From Bradyrhizobium sp. CCBAU 53338 (GTDB lineage: Bacteria; Pseudomonadota; Alphaproteobacteria; Rhizobiales; Xanthobacteraceae), in NCBI RefSeq assembly GCF_015291665.1, contig NZ_CP030048.1, positions 5,022,001 through 5,086,000 on the forward strand: a stretch of DNA of 64,000 nt. Reading direction: 5' to 3'. Of the stretch, positions 35,801-56,805 are shown one piece after another. The position numbers were made by a program, and so were the translations under genes. Below the pieces are notes generated by a model. That model searched no databases. It worked only from the letters and a program-made list of their open reading frames with translations, and was not told where the DNA came from. Numbering within the stretch: position 1 is the first letter of the stretch; the number at the start of each line of letters is the position of its first letter.

Positions 35801-35839
35801 AAAAAGGCGGGCGGTGAAGCTGGGGGGACCTCACCGCCC
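35801..35839 (-). terminator. Intrinsic terminator downstream of degP
   Basis: Arms GGGCGGTGA (35809-35817) and TCACCGCCC (35831-35839) form a 9-bp stem; read leftward it is followed by CCGCCTTTTTGCC, a T-tract. It would end the degP message before the response-regulator gene. Confidence 0.75.
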
Positions 35840-35842
35840 TAG

Positions 35843-35957
35843 ACCTTCCGACGGAGGGGGGCGTGTTTCCACCGGAAGGTAGGTGTGGGGAGCGAGCGTT
35901 GCGCTGCTCCCCGGAAGAGTGCCGGCGGCGGGGGCGACCGATGCCGGCGACACTCTT
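35843..35957. repeat. Three further consecutive inverted repeats between degP and the response regulator
   Basis: Stem 1: ACCTTCCG (35843-35850) with CGGAAGGT (35873-35880). Stem 2: GGGGAGC (35887-35893) with GCTCCCC (35906-35912). Stem 3: AAGAGTG-CCGGC (35915-35926) with GCCGG and CACTCTT (35943-35957). With the terminator this makes four hairpins in ~150 nt. They may protect the degP 3' end or act in processing. Confidence 0.6.
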
Positions 35958-35978
35958 CATCTCGACGGCCTCCTGAAG

Positions 35979-43371: not shown

Positions 43372-43502
43372 CTGGCAAGCTTCCGGCAGCGCGTGAGCCG
43401 CGCCCATAGGTGGCTTTACACCACGGCCGGACGATGCGGCAATTGACAATTGTCAATTTGGCGCGAGCACACCCTGTCCCGAAAGGGTGATAATCCAACG
43501 GC

Positions 43503-48213: not shown

Positions 48214-49200
48214 ATGGCCCCCCGCGCCAATTGGAAGGGTTTTCTGCGTCTCTCGCTCGTGACCTGCCCGGTCGCGCTGTATCCGGCCACATCGGATACC
48301 GAGAAGGTCTCGTTCAACCAGATCAACCGCAAGACCGGCCACCGGATCAAATATCTCAAGGTCGACGCCGAGACCGGTGACGAGGTGACCTCCGAGGACA
48401 TCGTCAAGGGCTACAAGGTCGACACCGACACCTACATCGAGGTCACCAAGGACGAGCTCGACGACATCGCGCTGGACTCCACCCACACGATCGAGATCGA
48501 CGAATTCGTGCCGAAGTCCGACATCGACAACCGCTATCTGATCCGCCCCTATTACCTCGTGCCCGACGGCAAGGTCGGCCACGACGCCTTCGCGGTGATC
48601 CGCGAGACCATCCGCAGCATGGACAAGGTCGCCATCGGCCGCGTGGTGCTGACCAACCGCGAGCACATCATCGCACTCGAGCCGCTCGACAGCGGCCTGA
48701 TGGGCACGCTGCTGCGCTACCCGTACGAGGTGCGCAGCGAGAAGGAGTATTTCGACGACATCCAGGACGTGAAGCTGACGAAGGATATGCTCGACCTCGC
48801 CAAGCACATCGTCGAGAAGAAGTCCGGCGCGTTCGAGCCGGAGCTGTTCGAGGATCACTACGAGACCGCGCTGATCGATCTGATCAACAAGAAGCGCGCA
48901 GGCACGCCGATCGCGGCCAGGTCCACGCCGAAGAGCGGCGGCAACGTCATCAATCTGATGGACGCGCTGAAGAAGAGCCTGGCAAGCGAAAAGGATGCAG
49001 TTCCGGCGGCGAAGGTCGCCAAAGAAACCGCCAAGGAAACCGCAAAAGCCAAGAAGCCGAAGAAGCGCGTCGAGGGCCAGCGCGAGATGCTGCTGCCGAT
49101 CTCCGGCAAGGGCGGCAAGGACGCCGCGGCCAGGGAAACCGCGCCGAAGAAGGCCGACAAGCCTGTACGCGCGACCACGCGAACCAAGAAGGCCGGCTGA
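48214..49200 (+). CDS. ku: Non-homologous end-joining protein Ku
   Basis: 328 aa, ATG at 48214 after GGAG at 48204-48207. Begins APRANWKGFLRLSLVTCPVA, the standard Ku start. The beta-barrel core contains VSFNQINRKTGHRIKYLK and the bridge/dimer region DKVAIGRVVLTNREHIIAL. A Lys/Ala-rich tail after ~262 (KETAKETAKAKKPKKR ... TRTKKAG) is typical of proteobacterial Ku and aids DNA binding and LigD recruitment. Homodimeric DNA-end binder; ligD is not in the window. Confidence 0.95.
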   Translation: MAPRANWKGFLRLSLVTCPVALYPATSDTEKVSFNQINRKTGHRIKYLKVDAETGDEVTSEDIVKGYKVDTDTYIEVTKDELDDIALDSTHTIEIDEFVPKSDIDNRYLIRPYYLVPDGKVGHDAFAVIRETIRSMDKVAIGRVVLTNREHIIALEPLDSGLMGTLLRYPYEVRSEKEYFDDIQDVKLTKDMLDLAKHIVEKKSGAFEPELFEDHYETALIDLINKKRAGTPIAARSTPKSGGNVINLMDALKKSLASEKDAVPAAKVAKETAKETAKAKKPKKRVEGQREMLLPISGKGGKDAAARETAPKKADKPVRATTRTKKAG

Positions 49201-50217: not shown

Positions 50218-50368
50218 ACCCGACGCGCCGTCGTGGCCACCAGCGGGCCCGTCCCAGGCGCGGCCCGACGACCGGCTGGTTTGGCTGACCCAGCGGACCA
50301 TGATCTGGGTCAAGCCTGTCGCGTCAGCGACAGTTTAGCATGAGCGACCCGACTTTTGTGGTCCGTCC

Positions 50369-51910
50369 ATGCCCCCCGATCCCTCGCGTTCCCAGCTCAA
50401 GATACGCCGCGTCCATCTCGATACGGGCCGCGAGAACGTCGTCGTCGTTTCCAGGCGATCGAAGGCACTGCGCGCGGATATCTTTCGCGGCTTCAGCCGC
50501 GTCGAGCTTCGCCTCGACGACAAGACGCTGCTTGCGACACTCCTGATCACCGACGACGATGCGCTGGCGGCCCAGGACGAAATCGGCCTCTCCGAGCCCG
50601 CCTTCCACCGCTTCGCCAAACCGGTCGGCACGCTGGTCACGGTCGCACCCGCCGCGCCGCCGGAGAGTCTCGAAGCCGTGCGCGCCAAGATCCGCGGTCG
50701 AACGCTCGACAAGGCCGAGATCGACGCCATCATCAGCGACCTCGCGCATTTTCGCTATTCCGACATGGAGATCGCCGCCTTCCTGATCGGCTCGGCGAGC
50801 TTCATCACCAGTGACGAGCTCCTGGCCCTGACAGGCGCCATGGCGCAGGCCGGCACGCAGCTCGTATGGCCCGACCAGATCGTGGTCGACAAGCACTGCA
50901 TCGGCGGCATTCCCGGTAACCGCACCTCGATGATCGTGGTGCCGATCGTCGCAGCCCACGGTCTCCCGATCCCGAAGACATCCTCGCGCGCCATCACCTC
51001 GCCGGCCGGAACGGCCGACACGATGGAGGTTCTGGCCCGCGTGAATGTCGGCGTCGAGGAAATGAAGTCGATCGTCTCGTCCTGCAACGGATGCCTGATC
51101 TGGGGCGGACACGTGAACCTGTCGCCGGCCGACGACGTGCTGATCTCGGTCGAACGCCCGCTCAGCCTGGACACCCGCGAGCAGATGGTCGCCTCCATCA
51201 TGTCGAAGAAGATCGCGGCGGGATCGACGCACCTGCTGATCGACATTCCGGTCGGGCCGACCGCGAAAGTCACCACCGCCATGGACGCGATGAGGCTGCG
51301 AAAGCTGTTCGAATTCGTCGGCGACCGGTTCGGCCGCACGGTCGAGGTGATCACGACCGACGGCCGCCAGCCGATCGGCAACGGCATCGGGCCGGTGCTC
51401 GAGGCCAACGACGTGATGGCGGTGCTCGGCAACGAGGAAGATGCGCCGCGCGACCTGCGCGAGAAATCGCTGCGGCTCGCCGCCCATCTCCTGGAATACG
51501 ATCCGAAGCTGCGCGGCGGCGCCGGCTATGCCCGCGCGCGTGAACTGCTCGACAGCGGCGCCGCCCTGAAGCAGATGCAGAAGATCATCGACGCCCAGGG
51601 TCCGTCGAAATGCAGCACCGATCTCGGACCCAGCAGCTTCGACGTCAAGGCGGCGCATGACGGCACGGTCGCCACGATCGACTGCCTCCGTCTCAACCGC
51701 CTCGCCCGCACCGCCGGCGCGCCACTCGACAAGGGCGCCGGCATTCGCCTCTTCAAGAAGATCGGCGACCGGGTCGAGCAGGGCGAGCCGCTCTACCGTG
51801 TCTACACGTTCGAAGGGCCGGAGCATGATCTGGCCGCGTCTGCCGCCCAGCAGGAGACCGGCTACATCGTCAACGGTCACGAGGCCCCACCGGGCAGGAC
51901 GCCGTCGTGA
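50369..51910 (+). CDS. Thymidine phosphorylase / AMP phosphorylase-family enzyme
   Basis: 513 aa, ATG at 50369. Nucleoside-phosphorylase class II fold with an N-terminal ~85-residue domain as in archaeal AMP phosphorylase. Conserved motifs: [20 protein letters not shown] (phosphate/substrate loop), [20 protein letters not shown], and [19 protein letters not shown]. The C-terminal barrel-sandwich domain has [16 protein letters not shown] and [16 protein letters not shown]. It either phosphorolyses thymidine/uridine or converts NMP to ribose-1,5-bisphosphate plus base; sequence length favours the AMPpase-like branch. GTGA overlap with the next gene. Confidence 0.88.
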
Positions 51911-52827
51911 GCACGGTCGTGTTCCAGACCTTGCCCTCCGGCGCCGGCGCGGCGAAGCGCATCGCGGCGCGGCTCGGACTGGCCTGCGAGGAGGTCGCCC
52001 TGCACCGCTTTCCGGACGGCGAACTGCGCGTGACGGTCGCGCCGGCGGCCGACACCACCATCCTCTATGCGTCGCTCGATCAACCCAATGACAAGCTGAT
52101 CGCCGTGCTGTTCGCCGCGGAAGCGCTGCGGCGCGGAGGCGCGAAGCGGCTGGTGCTGGTCGCGCCCTATCTCTGCTACATGCGGCAGGACATCGCGTTT
52201 CATGCCGGCGAAGCCGTCAGCCAGCGCGCCGTGGGCACCCTGCTTGCGGCGATCGTCGATCGCGTCGTCACCGTGGATGCACATCTGCATCGCACCGCCG
52301 ACATCGCTTCCGTGTTCCCTGGCATCGAAGCCGAGAATCTCTCCGCCATGCCGGCGATCGCAGACGCGCTCGCCGCCGGCGGCGTCGATCCCGCCACCAT
52401 CGTGATCGGTCCCGATGCGGAGTCCGAGCCCTGGGTCAAGGACCTGGCCGGACGGCTGGGCCTGCGGCACGCCGTCGCGCGCAAGATCCGGCGCGGTGAT
52501 CGTGCCGTGGACATTGCGTTCGCAGATGCCGGGCTGCTGGCAGGACGGCCGGCCCTGATGGTCGACGATATCGTATCGTCCGGGACCACGCTGATGGCCG
52601 CGGCGAAGGCGTTACTGTCGATGGGCGCGACGACCGTGGATTCGATCGTGACGCATGCGCTGTTTCCACCCGCGATGATCGCTGCATTCATCAACGCCGG
52701 CGTCCGCTCCGTCCGCTCGACGGAAAGCGTACCGCATCCGACCAACGCGATCGCCCTCGACGCGCCTCTCGCGGCCGCCTTGCGGTCCGAACTCGGTACC
52801 ACACCTTCGCCGGAGACAACGACATGA
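51907..52827 (+). CDS. PRPP synthase-like protein (ribose-phosphate pyrophosphokinase family)
   Basis: 306 aa from a GTG at 51907 overlapping the previous stop. Motifs: [44 protein letters not shown] at the divalent-metal loop, and the PRPP loop [13 protein letters not shown]. Canonical PrsA has VDD-x-x-DTGGT and D-x-H-x-x-Q; both are altered here, so substrate may differ (for example ribose-1,5-bisphosphate) or activity may be reduced. A housekeeping prs should be elsewhere. ATGA overlap with the next gene. Confidence 0.85.
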
Positions 52828-54419
52828 GCATCACCGTCCGTTTCTGCGGTGCCGCGCGCACCGTGACCGGCTCGAGCTATCTGTTCCAGACCGCAACCGG
52901 CCGCTTTCTGGTGGATTGCGGCCTGTTCCAGGGCCAGAAAACGCTCAAGGAGCTCAACTACGGCGCCTTCCCCTTCCGGCCGACCGATATCGACGCCGTC
53001 GTGCTGACGCACGCTCATATCGACCACAGCGGATTGCTGCCAAAACTCGTGCGCGAAGGATTTGACGGACCGATCCTGGCGACGCGCGGCACGATCGACC
53101 TCTGCTCCTACATGCTGCCGGACGCCGGCAGCATCCAGGAGTCCGAAGTCGCGCAGCTTAACCGGCGCAACAAGGCCCGCGGCCGCAAGGAGGTGCAGCC
53201 GATCTACACGCAGGCGGACGCGGTCGCGTCGCTGCAATCGTTTCGCGCCGTCGACTATGAACGCTGGATCGATGTCATCCCGGGCGTCCGTGCGCGCTAC
53301 TGGAATGCCGGTCATCTGCTCGGCTCCGCCTCGATCGAGCTCGAGATCGCCCAACGAGGCTCCCCGCGCCCGCTGCGCGTGCTGCTCTCCGGCGATGTCG
53401 GGCCGGAAGCCAAGCTGCTCCAGCCCGATCCCGAAGCACCGAGCGACCTCGACTACGTGATCTCCGAATCCACCTATGGCGACCGGGTGCGCGCCGCCAC
53501 GACGCCTGCGCTCCGCCGGCAGCATCTCGCGGCCGAGGTACGCGACGCTGCCGCAGCCGGAGGCGCGCTGCTGATACCCGCCTTCGCGGTCGAACGCACG
53601 CAGGAGCTGATCGTCGACCTCGTCGACCTGATGGAGCACGGCGAGATTCCGAAAGCGCCGATCTTCCTCGACTCGCCGCTGGCGATCCGCGCCACCGAAG
53701 TGTTTCGCCGGCACGCCGCGAGCCTCGACCCGAGCGTCGACGCCGAACGCCTGCTCAACTCGCCGCATCTCAAATTCACCGAGACCGCGGACGAGAGCAA
53801 GGCGATCATGCGGCTCAGCGGATTTCACATCATCATCGCGGCCAGCGGCATGTGCGACGCCGGACGCATCCGCCACCATCTGAAGCGCTGGCTCTGGAAC
53901 GAGCGCGCGACCGTGCTGCTCGCCGGCTTCCAGGCGAGCGGCACGCTCGGCCGCTTCCTGCAGGACGGCGCCAAAGCCGTGCGGATCCAGGGAGAGGAAA
54001 TCAGGGTCGCGGCACGGATCCGCATGATCGACGAATATTCGGGTCACGCCGACGGCGCAGGCATGGCCGGCTGGATTGCCGCACGGCGCCCCATCGCCCG
54101 CGGGCTGTTCCTGGTCCATGGCGAGGAAGGCGCCATCGCAGGTCTCGCCGAGCGAGTCGCCGAACGGATCATTCCGGCGGCCAAGGTGTACCAGCCGGTG
54201 CTGGACGACATCTATGAACTCGCAGCCCCCGAACCGCGCGTGATCGACGTCGATCATCGCCGGCGGCTCGCGCCGGAGGCTGTGACCCACCTCGACTGGC
54301 ACAACGAGATGTCGGAGCTGATGCTCGACATCAACGACAGGGTCGGCGCAGCTGCCGACGACCGTGCCCGCGGCGTCATCATCCGAAAGCTGCGCCGCGC
54401 GCTGGAAGACAAAGTATAG
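52824..54419 (+). CDS. MBL-fold beta-CASP RNase (CPSF73/YSH1-like)
   Basis: 531 aa, ATG at 52824 overlapping the previous stop. Metal site H63-A-H65-I-D67-H68 in LTHAHIDHSG, then YWNAGHLLGSASIEL and LLSGDVGPEAK. Beta-CASP motifs include YVISESTYGDR, LIPAFAVERTQELI, SGMCDAGRIRHHL and DEYSGHADGAG. An additional ~75-residue helical C-terminus follows the core. Such enzymes cleave RNA endo- or 5'-exonucleolytically. Third gene of the coupled operon. Confidence 0.9.
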   Translation: MSITVRFCGAARTVTGSSYLFQTATGRFLVDCGLFQGQKTLKELNYGAFPFRPTDIDAVVLTHAHIDHSGLLPKLVREGFDGPILATRGTIDLCSYMLPDAGSIQESEVAQLNRRNKARGRKEVQPIYTQADAVASLQSFRAVDYERWIDVIPGVRARYWNAGHLLGSASIELEIAQRGSPRPLRVLLSGDVGPEAKLLQPDPEAPSDLDYVISESTYGDRVRAATTPALRRQHLAAEVRDAAAAGGALLIPAFAVERTQELIVDLVDLMEHGEIPKAPIFLDSPLAIRATEVFRRHAASLDPSVDAERLLNSPHLKFTETADESKAIMRLSGFHIIIAASGMCDAGRIRHHLKRWLWNERATVLLAGFQASGTLGRFLQDGAKAVRIQGEEIRVAARIRMIDEYSGHADGAGMAGWIAARRPIARGLFLVHGEEGAIAGLAERVAERIIPAAKVYQPVLDDIYELAAPEPRVIDVDHRRRLAPEAVTHLDWHNEMSELMLDINDRVGAAADDRARGVIIRKLRRALEDKV

Positions 54420-55170: not shown

Positions 55171-56805
55171 ATGAAGCTCGGCACCGCCATTGCGGAAATC
55201 ATGCGGCGCGAGGGGATCGAGATCCTCTGCGGTTATCCGGTCAATCATCTGATCGAGCACGCGGCCAAGGCCGAGATTCGGCCCGTGATGGTGCGGCAGG
55301 AGCGCGTCGGCGTTCACATGGCGGATGCGATCTCGCGGGTGACGTCTGGGCGCACGATCGGCGCGTTCTGCATGCAGCACGGGCCCGGCGCCGAGAACGC
55401 GATGGGCGGCGTCGCGCAGTGCTTTGGCGAATCCGTGCCCGTGCTGGTGCTGCCGATGGGCTATCAGCGCAGGCTCGCGCATATCGAGCCGAACTTCAAT
55501 TCGAGCGAGGCGATGAAGCCGTTTGCGAAATCGTCCGAGCCGATCATCCTGGCGGCCGAGGTCGCCAACATCTTTCGACGCGCCTTCACCAAGCTGAAGA
55601 ACGGCCGCGGCGGGCCTGTGATCGTCGAAATCCCCTCCGACATGTGGAACGAGGAAGTGCCGGAACCGCTGAACTACACGCCGGTGCTGCGCACGCGCTA
55701 CGGCGCCGACCCTGTTCATGTGAAGGAGGCTGCCGCCCTGCTCGTGAATGCAAAACGGCCGGTGCTCTATGCCGGCCAGGGCGTGCACTACGCGCAGGCC
55801 TGGCCGCAGTTGAAGCGGTTGGCGGAACGGCTGGCCATCCCCGTCACTACCAGCCTCGGCGGTAAATCATCGTTCCCCGAGACGCATCCGCTCTCGCTCG
55901 GCTCGGGCGGCCTTGCCGTGCCGCGCGCGGTGCCGAAGTTCCTGGCCGAGGCCGACGTCATCTTCGGCATCGGCTGCTCCTTCACCGAGACCAGCTTTGG
56001 CATCGCCATGCCGAAGGGCAAGACCGTCATCCATTCCACGCTCGATCCCAACCATCTCAACAAGGATGTCGAAGCGAAGATCGGCCTCGTCGGCGATGCC
56101 GGTCTCGTGCTCGATGCGCTGCTGGAGGAGATCGGCAAGACCGTCACGAAGGATCGCGATGCATCGACGGTCGCCGCCGAGATCGCGACCTCGCACAAGG
56201 AATGGCTGGCGAAATGGATGCCGAAGCTGACCAGCAATGACGCGCCGCTCAATCCCTATCGCGTGCTGTGGGATCTGCAGCACACCATCGACATCGACAA
56301 CACCATCATCACCCATGATGCCGGCAGCCCGCGCGACCAGCTATCGCCGTTCTGGAAGGCGGTGACGCCGCTCTCCTATCTCGGCTGGGGCAAGACGACG
56401 CAGCTCGGCTACGGCCTTGGCCTGGCGATGGGTGCAAAGTTGGCGAAGCCCGACAAGCTCTGCATCAATGTCTGGGGCGATGCGGCGATCGGCTTCACCG
56501 GCATGGATTTCGAGACCGCTGTGCGCGAGCGCATCCCGATCATGTCTATTCTTCTGAACAACTTCTCGATGGCGATCGAGCTGAAGGTGATGCCGATCTC
56601 GACCGAGAAATATCGCTCGACCGACATCTCCGGCGACTATGCGGCGATGGCGCGCGCCTTCGGCGGCCATGGCGAGCGGGTGACAAGGCCTGAGGACATC
56701 ATCCCCGCGATCAAGCGCGGGATCCAGAAGACGAAGGAAGGCGTGCCGGTGCTGCTGGAATTCATCACCAGCAAGGAAACCGAGGTATCGCGCCCGGGCA
56801 CGTGA
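55171..56805 (+). CDS. Thiamine-diphosphate-dependent enzyme (acetolactate synthase-like)
   Basis: 544 aa, ATG at 55171 after GAGGAGAGAG. Three ThDP-family domains. Catalytic Glu E44 in MVRQERVGVHMADA activates the cofactor. The ThDP/Mg motif spans G436-D437 (WGDAAIGFTGMDFETA) to N463-N464 (SILLNN). The Q/H pair near MQHGPGAENAMGG resembles carboligase and decarboxylase members. Reaction unknown: candidates are acetolactate synthase, oxalyl-CoA decarboxylase-like or benzaldehyde-lyase-like chemistry. Stands alone. Confidence 0.87.
   Translation: MKLGTAIAEIMRREGIEILCGYPVNHLIEHAAKAEIRPVMVRQERVGVHMADAISRVTSGRTIGAFCMQHGPGAENAMGGVAQCFGESVPVLVLPMGYQRRLAHIEPNFNSSEAMKPFAKSSEPIILAAEVANIFRRAFTKLKNGRGGPVIVEIPSDMWNEEVPEPLNYTPVLRTRYGADPVHVKEAAALLVNAKRPVLYAGQGVHYAQAWPQLKRLAERLAIPVTTSLGGKSSFPETHPLSLGSGGLAVPRAVPKFLAEADVIFGIGCSFTETSFGIAMPKGKTVIHSTLDPNHLNKDVEAKIGLVGDAGLVLDALLEEIGKTVTKDRDASTVAAEIATSHKEWLAKWMPKLTSNDAPLNPYRVLWDLQHTIDIDNTIITHDAGSPRDQLSPFWKAVTPLSYLGWGKTTQLGYGLGLAMGAKLAKPDKLCINVWGDAAIGFTGMDFETAVRERIPIMSILLNNFSMAIELKVMPISTEKYRSTDISGDYAAMARAFGGHGERVTRPEDIIPAIKRGIQKTKEGVPVLLEFITSKETEVSRPGT

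Follow-up and report, generated by a model that had tools for sequence, protein, structure and literature searches.

Introduction

The closest described route to the one considered here is the archaeal nucleoside monophosphate (NMP) shunt, or pentose bisphosphate pathway, which consists of an NMP phosphorylase, a ribose-1,5-bisphosphate (R15P) isomerase and RubisCO (PMC9700705). In the cited passages of PMC8376864, the Thermococcus phosphorylase splits natural NMPs into base and R15P, and had once been misnamed a thymidine phosphorylase. A bacterial operon with a related first gene, from Bradyrhizobium diazoefficiens, is already in print together with its regulation as expression data, without an assigned function in the passages cited (PMC9104804, PMC6515984). 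Here we analyse the corresponding operon in a 64,000-nucleotide stretch of Bradyrhizobium sp. CCBAU 53338 (contig NZ_CP030048.1, positions 5,022,001 to 5,086,000; hereafter the window), which consists of three genes:

50369..51910, + strand: PHOS, an NMP (AMP) phosphorylase-like protein of 513 amino acids (TIGR02645, 745.4 bits; matches 4ga5)
51907..52827, + strand: PRSL, a divergent homologue of phosphoribosyl pyrophosphate (PRPP) synthase, 306 amino acids (NF005537/PRK07199, 384.9 bits)
52824..54419, + strand: a beta-CASP metallo-beta-lactamase RNase-like protein of 531 amino acids (PF10996, PF00753, PF07521)

We hypothesize that this operon encodes a low-oxygen-induced module that would recover the ribose of 5'-mononucleotides, with PHOS making and PRSL removing R15P, and we rate the chances of this as a little short of even. 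An earlier, sequence-only reading of the same DNA had the three genes at 50369-54419 joined by 4-nt overlaps, and both the coordinates and the overlaps (GTGA at 51907-51910 between PHOS and PRSL, ATGA at 52824-52827 between PRSL and the RNase gene) are as described there.

PHOS is a likely NMP phosphorylase

PHOS exceeds the cut-off of 434.6 bits for TIGR02645, a hypothetical equivalog named 'putative thymidine phosphorylase'. The thymidine and pyrimidine side was assessed with five models chosen by name, three thymidine-type and two pyrimidine-type, the archaeal family being left aside. PHOS stays below the cut-offs of TIGR02644 (192.4 bits, cut-off 409.05), NF004490 (188.8, cut-off 269), NF004747 (151.2, cut-off 559) and TIGR02643 (129.1, cut-off 570.7), and passes that of NF003338 (695, cut-off 434), a subfamily model named 'thymidine phosphorylase' to which the AMP-phosphorylase-like members belong.

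The best solved relatives are 4ga5 (E 1e-100, residues 11-494) and 4ga4. The alignment of 4ga5 to PHOS begins at residue 11, whereas nucleoside phosphorylases align only from about residues 94-106; the N-terminal region of AMP phosphorylases, ahead of the phosphorylase core, is thus present in PHOS. Both 4ga5 and 4ga4 carry the deposition name 'putative thymidine phosphorylase', and we take them to be the Thermococcus AMP phosphorylase. The base site points the same way:

51152..51157, + strand: E262-R263 of PHOS, base site; all 22 aligned relatives have the same pair

This Glu-Arg pair is common to 4ga5, while the pyrimidine phosphorylase 1brw aligns Arg-Asp at the same place. Taken together, PHOS is likely an NMP phosphorylase, catalysing NMP + Pi -> base + R15P. 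The sequence-only reading had called the first enzyme AMP-phosphorylase-like, and the four missed models, the N-terminal region and the Glu-Arg pair bear this out.

PRSL is remodelled at the diphosphate site

NF005537/PRK07199, for which PRSL is above the cut-off of 322 bits, is named ribose-phosphate diphosphokinase by NCBIfam. The PRPP-synthase fold is kept, and the 50 matches listed in the fold comparison include PRPP synthases, PRPP-synthase-associated proteins and phosphoribosyltransferases. Also kept are the metal and ribose-phosphate residues (H126, D170, D220, D221 and T228), the adenine-site motif FPDGE, RQD, K193, R195 and DD. In E. coli the counterparts H131, D170, D220, D221 and T228 are described as metal or ribose-phosphate residues (cited passages of PMC9232217). 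The departures lie in two short segments:

52282..52293, + strand: HLHR of PRSL, residues 126-129, the metal His plus added H128 and R129
52408..52425, + strand: diphosphate loop GPDAES of PRSL, residues 168-173, replacing canonical SPDVGG

The PDxGG loop of PRPP synthase is its diphosphate-handling loop, and PRSL lacks this signature. Among 150 PRSL matches, a set that counts a few genomes twice, H128 occurs in all 150 and R129 in 149, and neither is found in any of 13 canonical copies; E172 of the diphosphate loop occurs in 149 of the 150 (operon-linked copies), compared with GG in 12 of 12 canonical copies, the 12-13 canonical controls coming from the window's genus and order only. The basic residue that follows RQD is mostly lost across the subfamily (39/150). 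Thus, of the two changes named in the sequence-only reading, in the metal and PRPP loops, the one in the diphosphate loop is real and near-invariant, and the metal and ribose-phosphate residues are retained. We infer that PRSL is a PRPP synthase whose remodelling centres on the phosphate group that is transferred, with its ribose-5-phosphate (R5P) and metal residues untouched.

Among individual Prs-like copies, one (L016) has an internal stop and another (L018) is in pieces. A viral PRSL copy was set aside, its basis being one short contig (L098).

The PHOS-PRSL pair is conserved and the RNase gene is optional

Named-locus counts refer to the best-scoring 80 of 584 named loci, so that near relatives weigh more in them. 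In 71 of these 80, PRSL follows PHOS within 600 nt. In a phylum-wide sample, TIGR02645 was above cut-off in 34 of 299 genomes; 36 loci fetched around such hits, excluding the host genome's own and a truncated hit in G292, contained PRSL in 34 cases and the RNase gene in 17. A second sample, from the gammaproteobacteria (the class of G305), had PHOS above cut-off in 49 of 229 genomes, with PRSL in 28 of 30 short loci and above its family cut-off in 38 of 46 further PHOS carriers. In these surveys the PRSL of G575 (321.3 bits against the cut-off of 322, one stop) was scored as present, and G311 was kept as a PHOS genome though its PHOS frame departs from the family after about 300 residues. The PHOS frame of L094 likewise departs from its family after about 300 residues.

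Because PRSL follows PHOS in 71/80 named and 34/36 phylum-wide loci, the pairing is not due to chance, and the survey of operon conservation called for by the sequence-only reading comes out in its favour. Neither of the two findings that this reading held against itself, a phosphorylase confined to thymidine or uridine and a normal R5P kinase in a non-conserved operon, is seen in the sequence: PHOS does not fall on the thymidine side and the operon is conserved. The operon is unevenly distributed within the genus: 17 of 36 same-genus genomes, the host included, have NF005537 above cut-off. No fusion of PHOS with PRSL, RNase, phosphoketolase or acetate kinase was found among stop-to-stop frames of at least 560 amino acids in 134 loci. 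Recurrent neighbours among 116 loci are CRP/FNR regulators (9), universal stress proteins (11) and PPDK (6).

The third gene combines Lactamase_B, Beta-Casp and RMMBL domains, the set of a beta-CASP ribonuclease, and its product is predicted to act as an RNase; the zinc motif HAHIDH lies at 53010-53027 and the best solved relative is Ribonuclease TTHA0252 (E 5e-69). Assignments to type VII CRISPR Cas14 (336.8 of 800 bits) and to archaeal aCPSF1 (252 of 580.2 bits) were rejected. It is the least constant partner. Because it is near PHOS in only 42 of the 80 named loci, an RNA step would not be obligatory. In six loci without PRSL (L110, L113, L143 [Bradyrhizobium], L122, L126 and L140) the RNase gene lies within 66 nt after PHOS, so a PHOS-RNase pair also occurs without PRSL. 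PHOS is therefore the hub of this gene group, PRSL its usual partner and the RNase an optional one.

The operon carries a FixK2-type box known from an ortholog

50300..50313, + strand: FNR/FixK2-type box ATGATCTGGGTCAA, one mismatch to TTGAYNNNNRTCAA, 55 nt before the first start codon

Such boxes, with no more than one mismatch, precede the genes in 24 of 79 named loci (one of the 80 has no upstream sequence), against 1.5 expected, and in all seven named Bradyrhizobium loci. The identical 14-mer ATGATCTGGGTCAA is printed for bll3117 of B. diazoefficiens, first gene of the predicted operon bll3117-bll3116-bll3115; deletion of fixK2 changes bll3117 by -6.6 and bll3115 by -30.6 (cited passages of PMC9104804). 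Under microoxic conditions, the proteins of bll3117, bll3116 and bll3115 change by 2.1, 4.4 and 2.9 (log2) and their mRNAs by 5.1-, 7.7- and 15.4-fold, respectively (cited passages of PMC6515984). The low-oxygen induction that the sequence-only reading had suggested looking for is thus already in print for the ortholog (PMC6515984, PMC9104804, as cited), and by identity of the box we predict that the operon of the present strain is a FixK2 target as well. The passages available from the open-access literature give no function for the operon and do not name AMP phosphorylase together with phosphoketolase; in the main text of a transposon paper (PMC8225791) these genes are unmentioned.

The phosphoketolase of the host genome carries a FixK box of its own, TTGACCTCACGCAA, which is printed for bll2518, FixK2-dependent together with an acetate kinase gene (cited passages of PMC9104804). 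No acetate kinase was seen behind the host's phosphoketolase in an 8-kb stretch. In four other loci (L081, L087, L088 and L091), which belong to three families (f49, f79 and f33), a phosphoketolase gene stands in line with PRSL or RNase; in L081 and L087 the longest reading frames of this gene and PRSL overlap. A perfect FNR/FixK-type box, TTGACAATTGTCAA, also occurs elsewhere in the window, at 43443-43456.

PhnN is fused to PHOS relatives and may stand in for PRSL

The P-loop kinase PhnN converts R15P to PRPP. In L093, and in five of five proteins scanned, a PHOS relative is fused C-terminally to PhnN. The P-loop start GPSG is found in 117 of the 120 best PhnN-PHOS fusion hits, with source names that include Caballeronia, Cupriavidus, Pseudomonas and Bosea. 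Two fusion orders had been suspected from the lengths; this was rejected, PhnN being N-terminal in 5/5 scanned.

PhnN is above cut-off in 9 of 10 PHOS genomes without PRSL vs 30 of 119 with it. This count leaves out L015, L104, L084 and L091, which are second entries of counted genomes, as well as G408, G470 and G292, in which PHOS lies at a contig end so that PRSL status is not judgeable. A fuller count outside the genus, which drops G580 (same genome as G035), gives 6 of 7 vs 15 of 106 (Fisher p 1.3e-4, kinship ignored). Of 114 genomes first chosen, 80 were searched for PhnN. We regard these counts as suggestive of PhnN standing in for a missing PRSL. The genomes that lack PRSL are mostly ones with PhnN, which is consistent with a role as an R15P sink and does not fix the product.

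As to the surroundings of PhnN, no C-P lyase gene was found among its scanned neighbours in L224, L226 and L227. In L224 (485-4267), from a genome without PRSL, a lone PhnN gene lies about 1.7 kb from a gene for a urate oxidase N-terminal domain, a purine-breakdown neighbour.

Proposed mechanism and alternatives

In the proposed module, the RNase would, as an optional first step, supply 5'-NMPs, PHOS would phosphorolyse them to base and R15P, and PRSL would remove the R15P. The reaction we prefer for PRSL is R15P + AMP (or ADP) <-> R5P + ADP (or ATP), a transfer of the C1 phosphoryl group. In this genus, and in a few lineages beyond it, R5P could, after isomerisation, reach a FixK2-type phosphoketolase and yield acetyl phosphate; alternatively it could enter the ordinary pentose phosphate route.

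When PRPP synthase runs in reverse, PRPP + AMP gives R5P + ATP, and the AMP phosphate attacks the phosphorus atom adjacent to the C1 oxygen of the sugar. We prefer the phosphotransferase reaction because R15P offers this same phosphorus without the distal phosphate, and because the changes in PRSL sit at the diphosphate site; PRSL thus probably removes R15P by phosphoryl transfer to AMP or ADP. Since this single step would do the work of PhnN and reverse PRPP synthase together, it would also explain how PhnN could stand in. The proposal in full is that PRSL is a new R15P:AMP (or ADP) phosphotransferase, derived from PRPP synthase by closure of the distal-phosphate site, which together with the NMP phosphorylase saves the energy of the glycosidic bond as nucleotide phosphate and delivers R5P, in some lineages to phosphoketolase. 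In this complete form it is tentative, and we hold it to be less likely than not.

The sequence-only reading proposed that PHOS makes R15P and that PRSL, with ATP, converts it to PRPP, which would be the reaction of PhnN carried out by an unrelated fold and would turn NMP ribose into PRPP. That the PRPP-making PhnN is fused to PHOS elsewhere and recurs in PHOS genomes without PRSL favours this route, as does a nadC-like gene, encoding a PRPP-using enzyme, ahead of the fusion in L093 (7925-10580), where it lies immediately 5' and places a PRPP-using step beside a possible PRPP maker. PRPP synthases, however, transfer onto the C1 oxygen, and the route requires gamma-phosphoryl transfer to the sugar's phosphate, one phosphate off the chemistry of the fold; moreover, those lineages in which a phosphoketolase gene stands in line with PRSL point to R5P. 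We consider this route unlikely, though first among the alternatives. From the RNA-to-PRPP recycling idea, the link to R15P survives through the PHOS family and the PhnN fusions, PRPP formation by PRSL is conjectural, and the RNA step would be optional, given the RNase count.

Next in rank, and also improbable in our view, PRSL would be an ordinary though divergent PRPP synthase (R5P + ATP -> PRPP + AMP) for low oxygen, with PHOS recycling AMP and other NMPs. The retained fold, adenine site and ribose-phosphate residues and the NCBIfam name fit such an enzyme, but a canonical PRPP synthase is already encoded elsewhere in the host genome, and the subfamily departs from the canonical form in its diphosphate loop and in the basic residue that follows RQD.

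The pair could also run in the biosynthetic direction, PRSL making R15P from R5P and ATP or ADP and PHOS joining R15P to free bases to give NMP, which would spare energy in base salvage at low oxygen. In principle both steps can run either way, the same residues would fit and many loci have no RNase, but the RNase in the remaining loci and the in-line phosphoketolase in some fit breakdown better, which makes this direction quite improbable.

The sequence-only reading had isomerase and form III RubisCO absent: RubisCO is indeed missing from the operon and no R15P isomerase was found in the host genome (TIGR00511 reaches at best 138.7 bits, against a cut-off of 314.1), but that genome has two PF00016 matches to the RubisCO large chain, of unassigned form. 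A route in which a weak isomerase-family (MtnA-like) protein, such as that sub-cut-off match, turns R15P into ribulose-1,5-bisphosphate for this RubisCO, as in archaea, is very improbable, as RubisCO occurs in only 19 of 36 carriers, isomerase is above cut-off in 0 of 36 and PRSL is left unexplained.

Several observations weigh against the ribose-recovery module itself. The activities of PHOS and PRSL are predictions; PHOS is below the cut-off of the AMP phosphorylase equivalog TIGR03327 (485.4 bits, cut-off 535), and about half of the loci have no RNase gene close to PHOS. Only 6 of 116 loci have a phosphoketolase gene in the vicinity of PHOS, and in two of these, L096 and L105, it lies further off than in the four in-line cases. 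The phosphoketolase family PF03894 is present in 17 of 19 same-genus carriers and also in 15 of 21 same-genus non-carriers; outside the genus only 8 of 32 carriers have it, for which reason phosphoketolase was downgraded as an obligatory partner. For the ortholog, the cited passages of PMC6515984 list no change in bacteroids and do not place it in the direct FixK2 regulon as defined earlier. In PhnN-fused relatives the base-site Glu is replaced by Thr in 120 of 120, so their substrate may differ from that of PHOS. Within the window's genus PhnN shows no contrast (3 of 3 without PRSL vs 17 of 19 with it) and, where read, sits in a C-P lyase operon, adjoining phnJ in L225, L228 and L229, the last being the host genome's own locus. 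PRSL status switches seven times along the PHOS tree, and among independent pairs PhnN moves against it about 3 times and with it 0.1 times (median p 0.25); the PRSL/PhnN exchange was downgraded as a firm law by this test. G559 has neither PRSL nor PhnN.

If the module holds, it would be a bacterial use of RNA ribose under low oxygen that requires neither RubisCO nor isomerase, R15P would be a working intermediate in many proteobacteria without the archaeal isomerase/RubisCO route, and the PRSL family would be named after a reaction that it does not catalyse. The module would furthermore give a function to genes in the microoxia-induced set of the soybean symbiont, tie RNA turnover to low-oxygen energy supply, and offer PRSL as a case in which to study how a diphosphotransferase turns into a phosphotransferase.

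Genomic surroundings

The host genome (G000) is 8.28 Mb, and the closest named PHOS loci are mostly from Bradyrhizobium. Upstream of the operon, 48214-49200 (+) encodes a Ku end-joining protein, and downstream 55171-56805 (+) encodes a thiamine-diphosphate enzyme (NF004807, 944.6 bits, cut-off 607); L061 and L062 likewise have these two genes close to the operon. The Rfam small RNA BjrC80 of Bradyrhizobiaceae lies at 35803-35962 (-) of the window (130.8 bits).

Comparison with known systems

The operon is best described as a relative of the NMP shunt with a possibly new enzyme, PRSL, inside. It resembles the archaeal shunt (PMC9700705) in its homologous first enzyme, PHOS being inferred to make R15P, and differs from it in that no R15P isomerase was found; instead there are an RNase and a relative of PRPP synthase, joined in some lineages by a phosphoketolase. 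With PRPP synthases (1u9y, 3mbi, human PRPS1/2, E. coli Prs) PRSL shares the fold, FPDGE, RQD, the metal His/Asp and DDxxSxGxT; where these have PDxGG, PRSL has GPDxE(S/A), adds H128-R129 and mostly loses the basic residue after RQD. The PhnN-thymidine phosphorylase-like fusions (P0001, P0044, P0083, P0104, P0106) likewise tie a PHOS-family domain to an R15P enzyme, but through a P-loop kinase instead of PRSL, with Thr for the base-site Glu and, in a 601-amino-acid form, without the PHOS N-terminal region. The operon bll3117-bll3116-bll3115 of B. diazoefficiens matches the window operon in its three products and in the box ATGATCTGGGTCAA; in the cited passages (PMC9104804, PMC6515984) it figures as a set of regulated genes, dependent on FixK2 and induced by microoxia.

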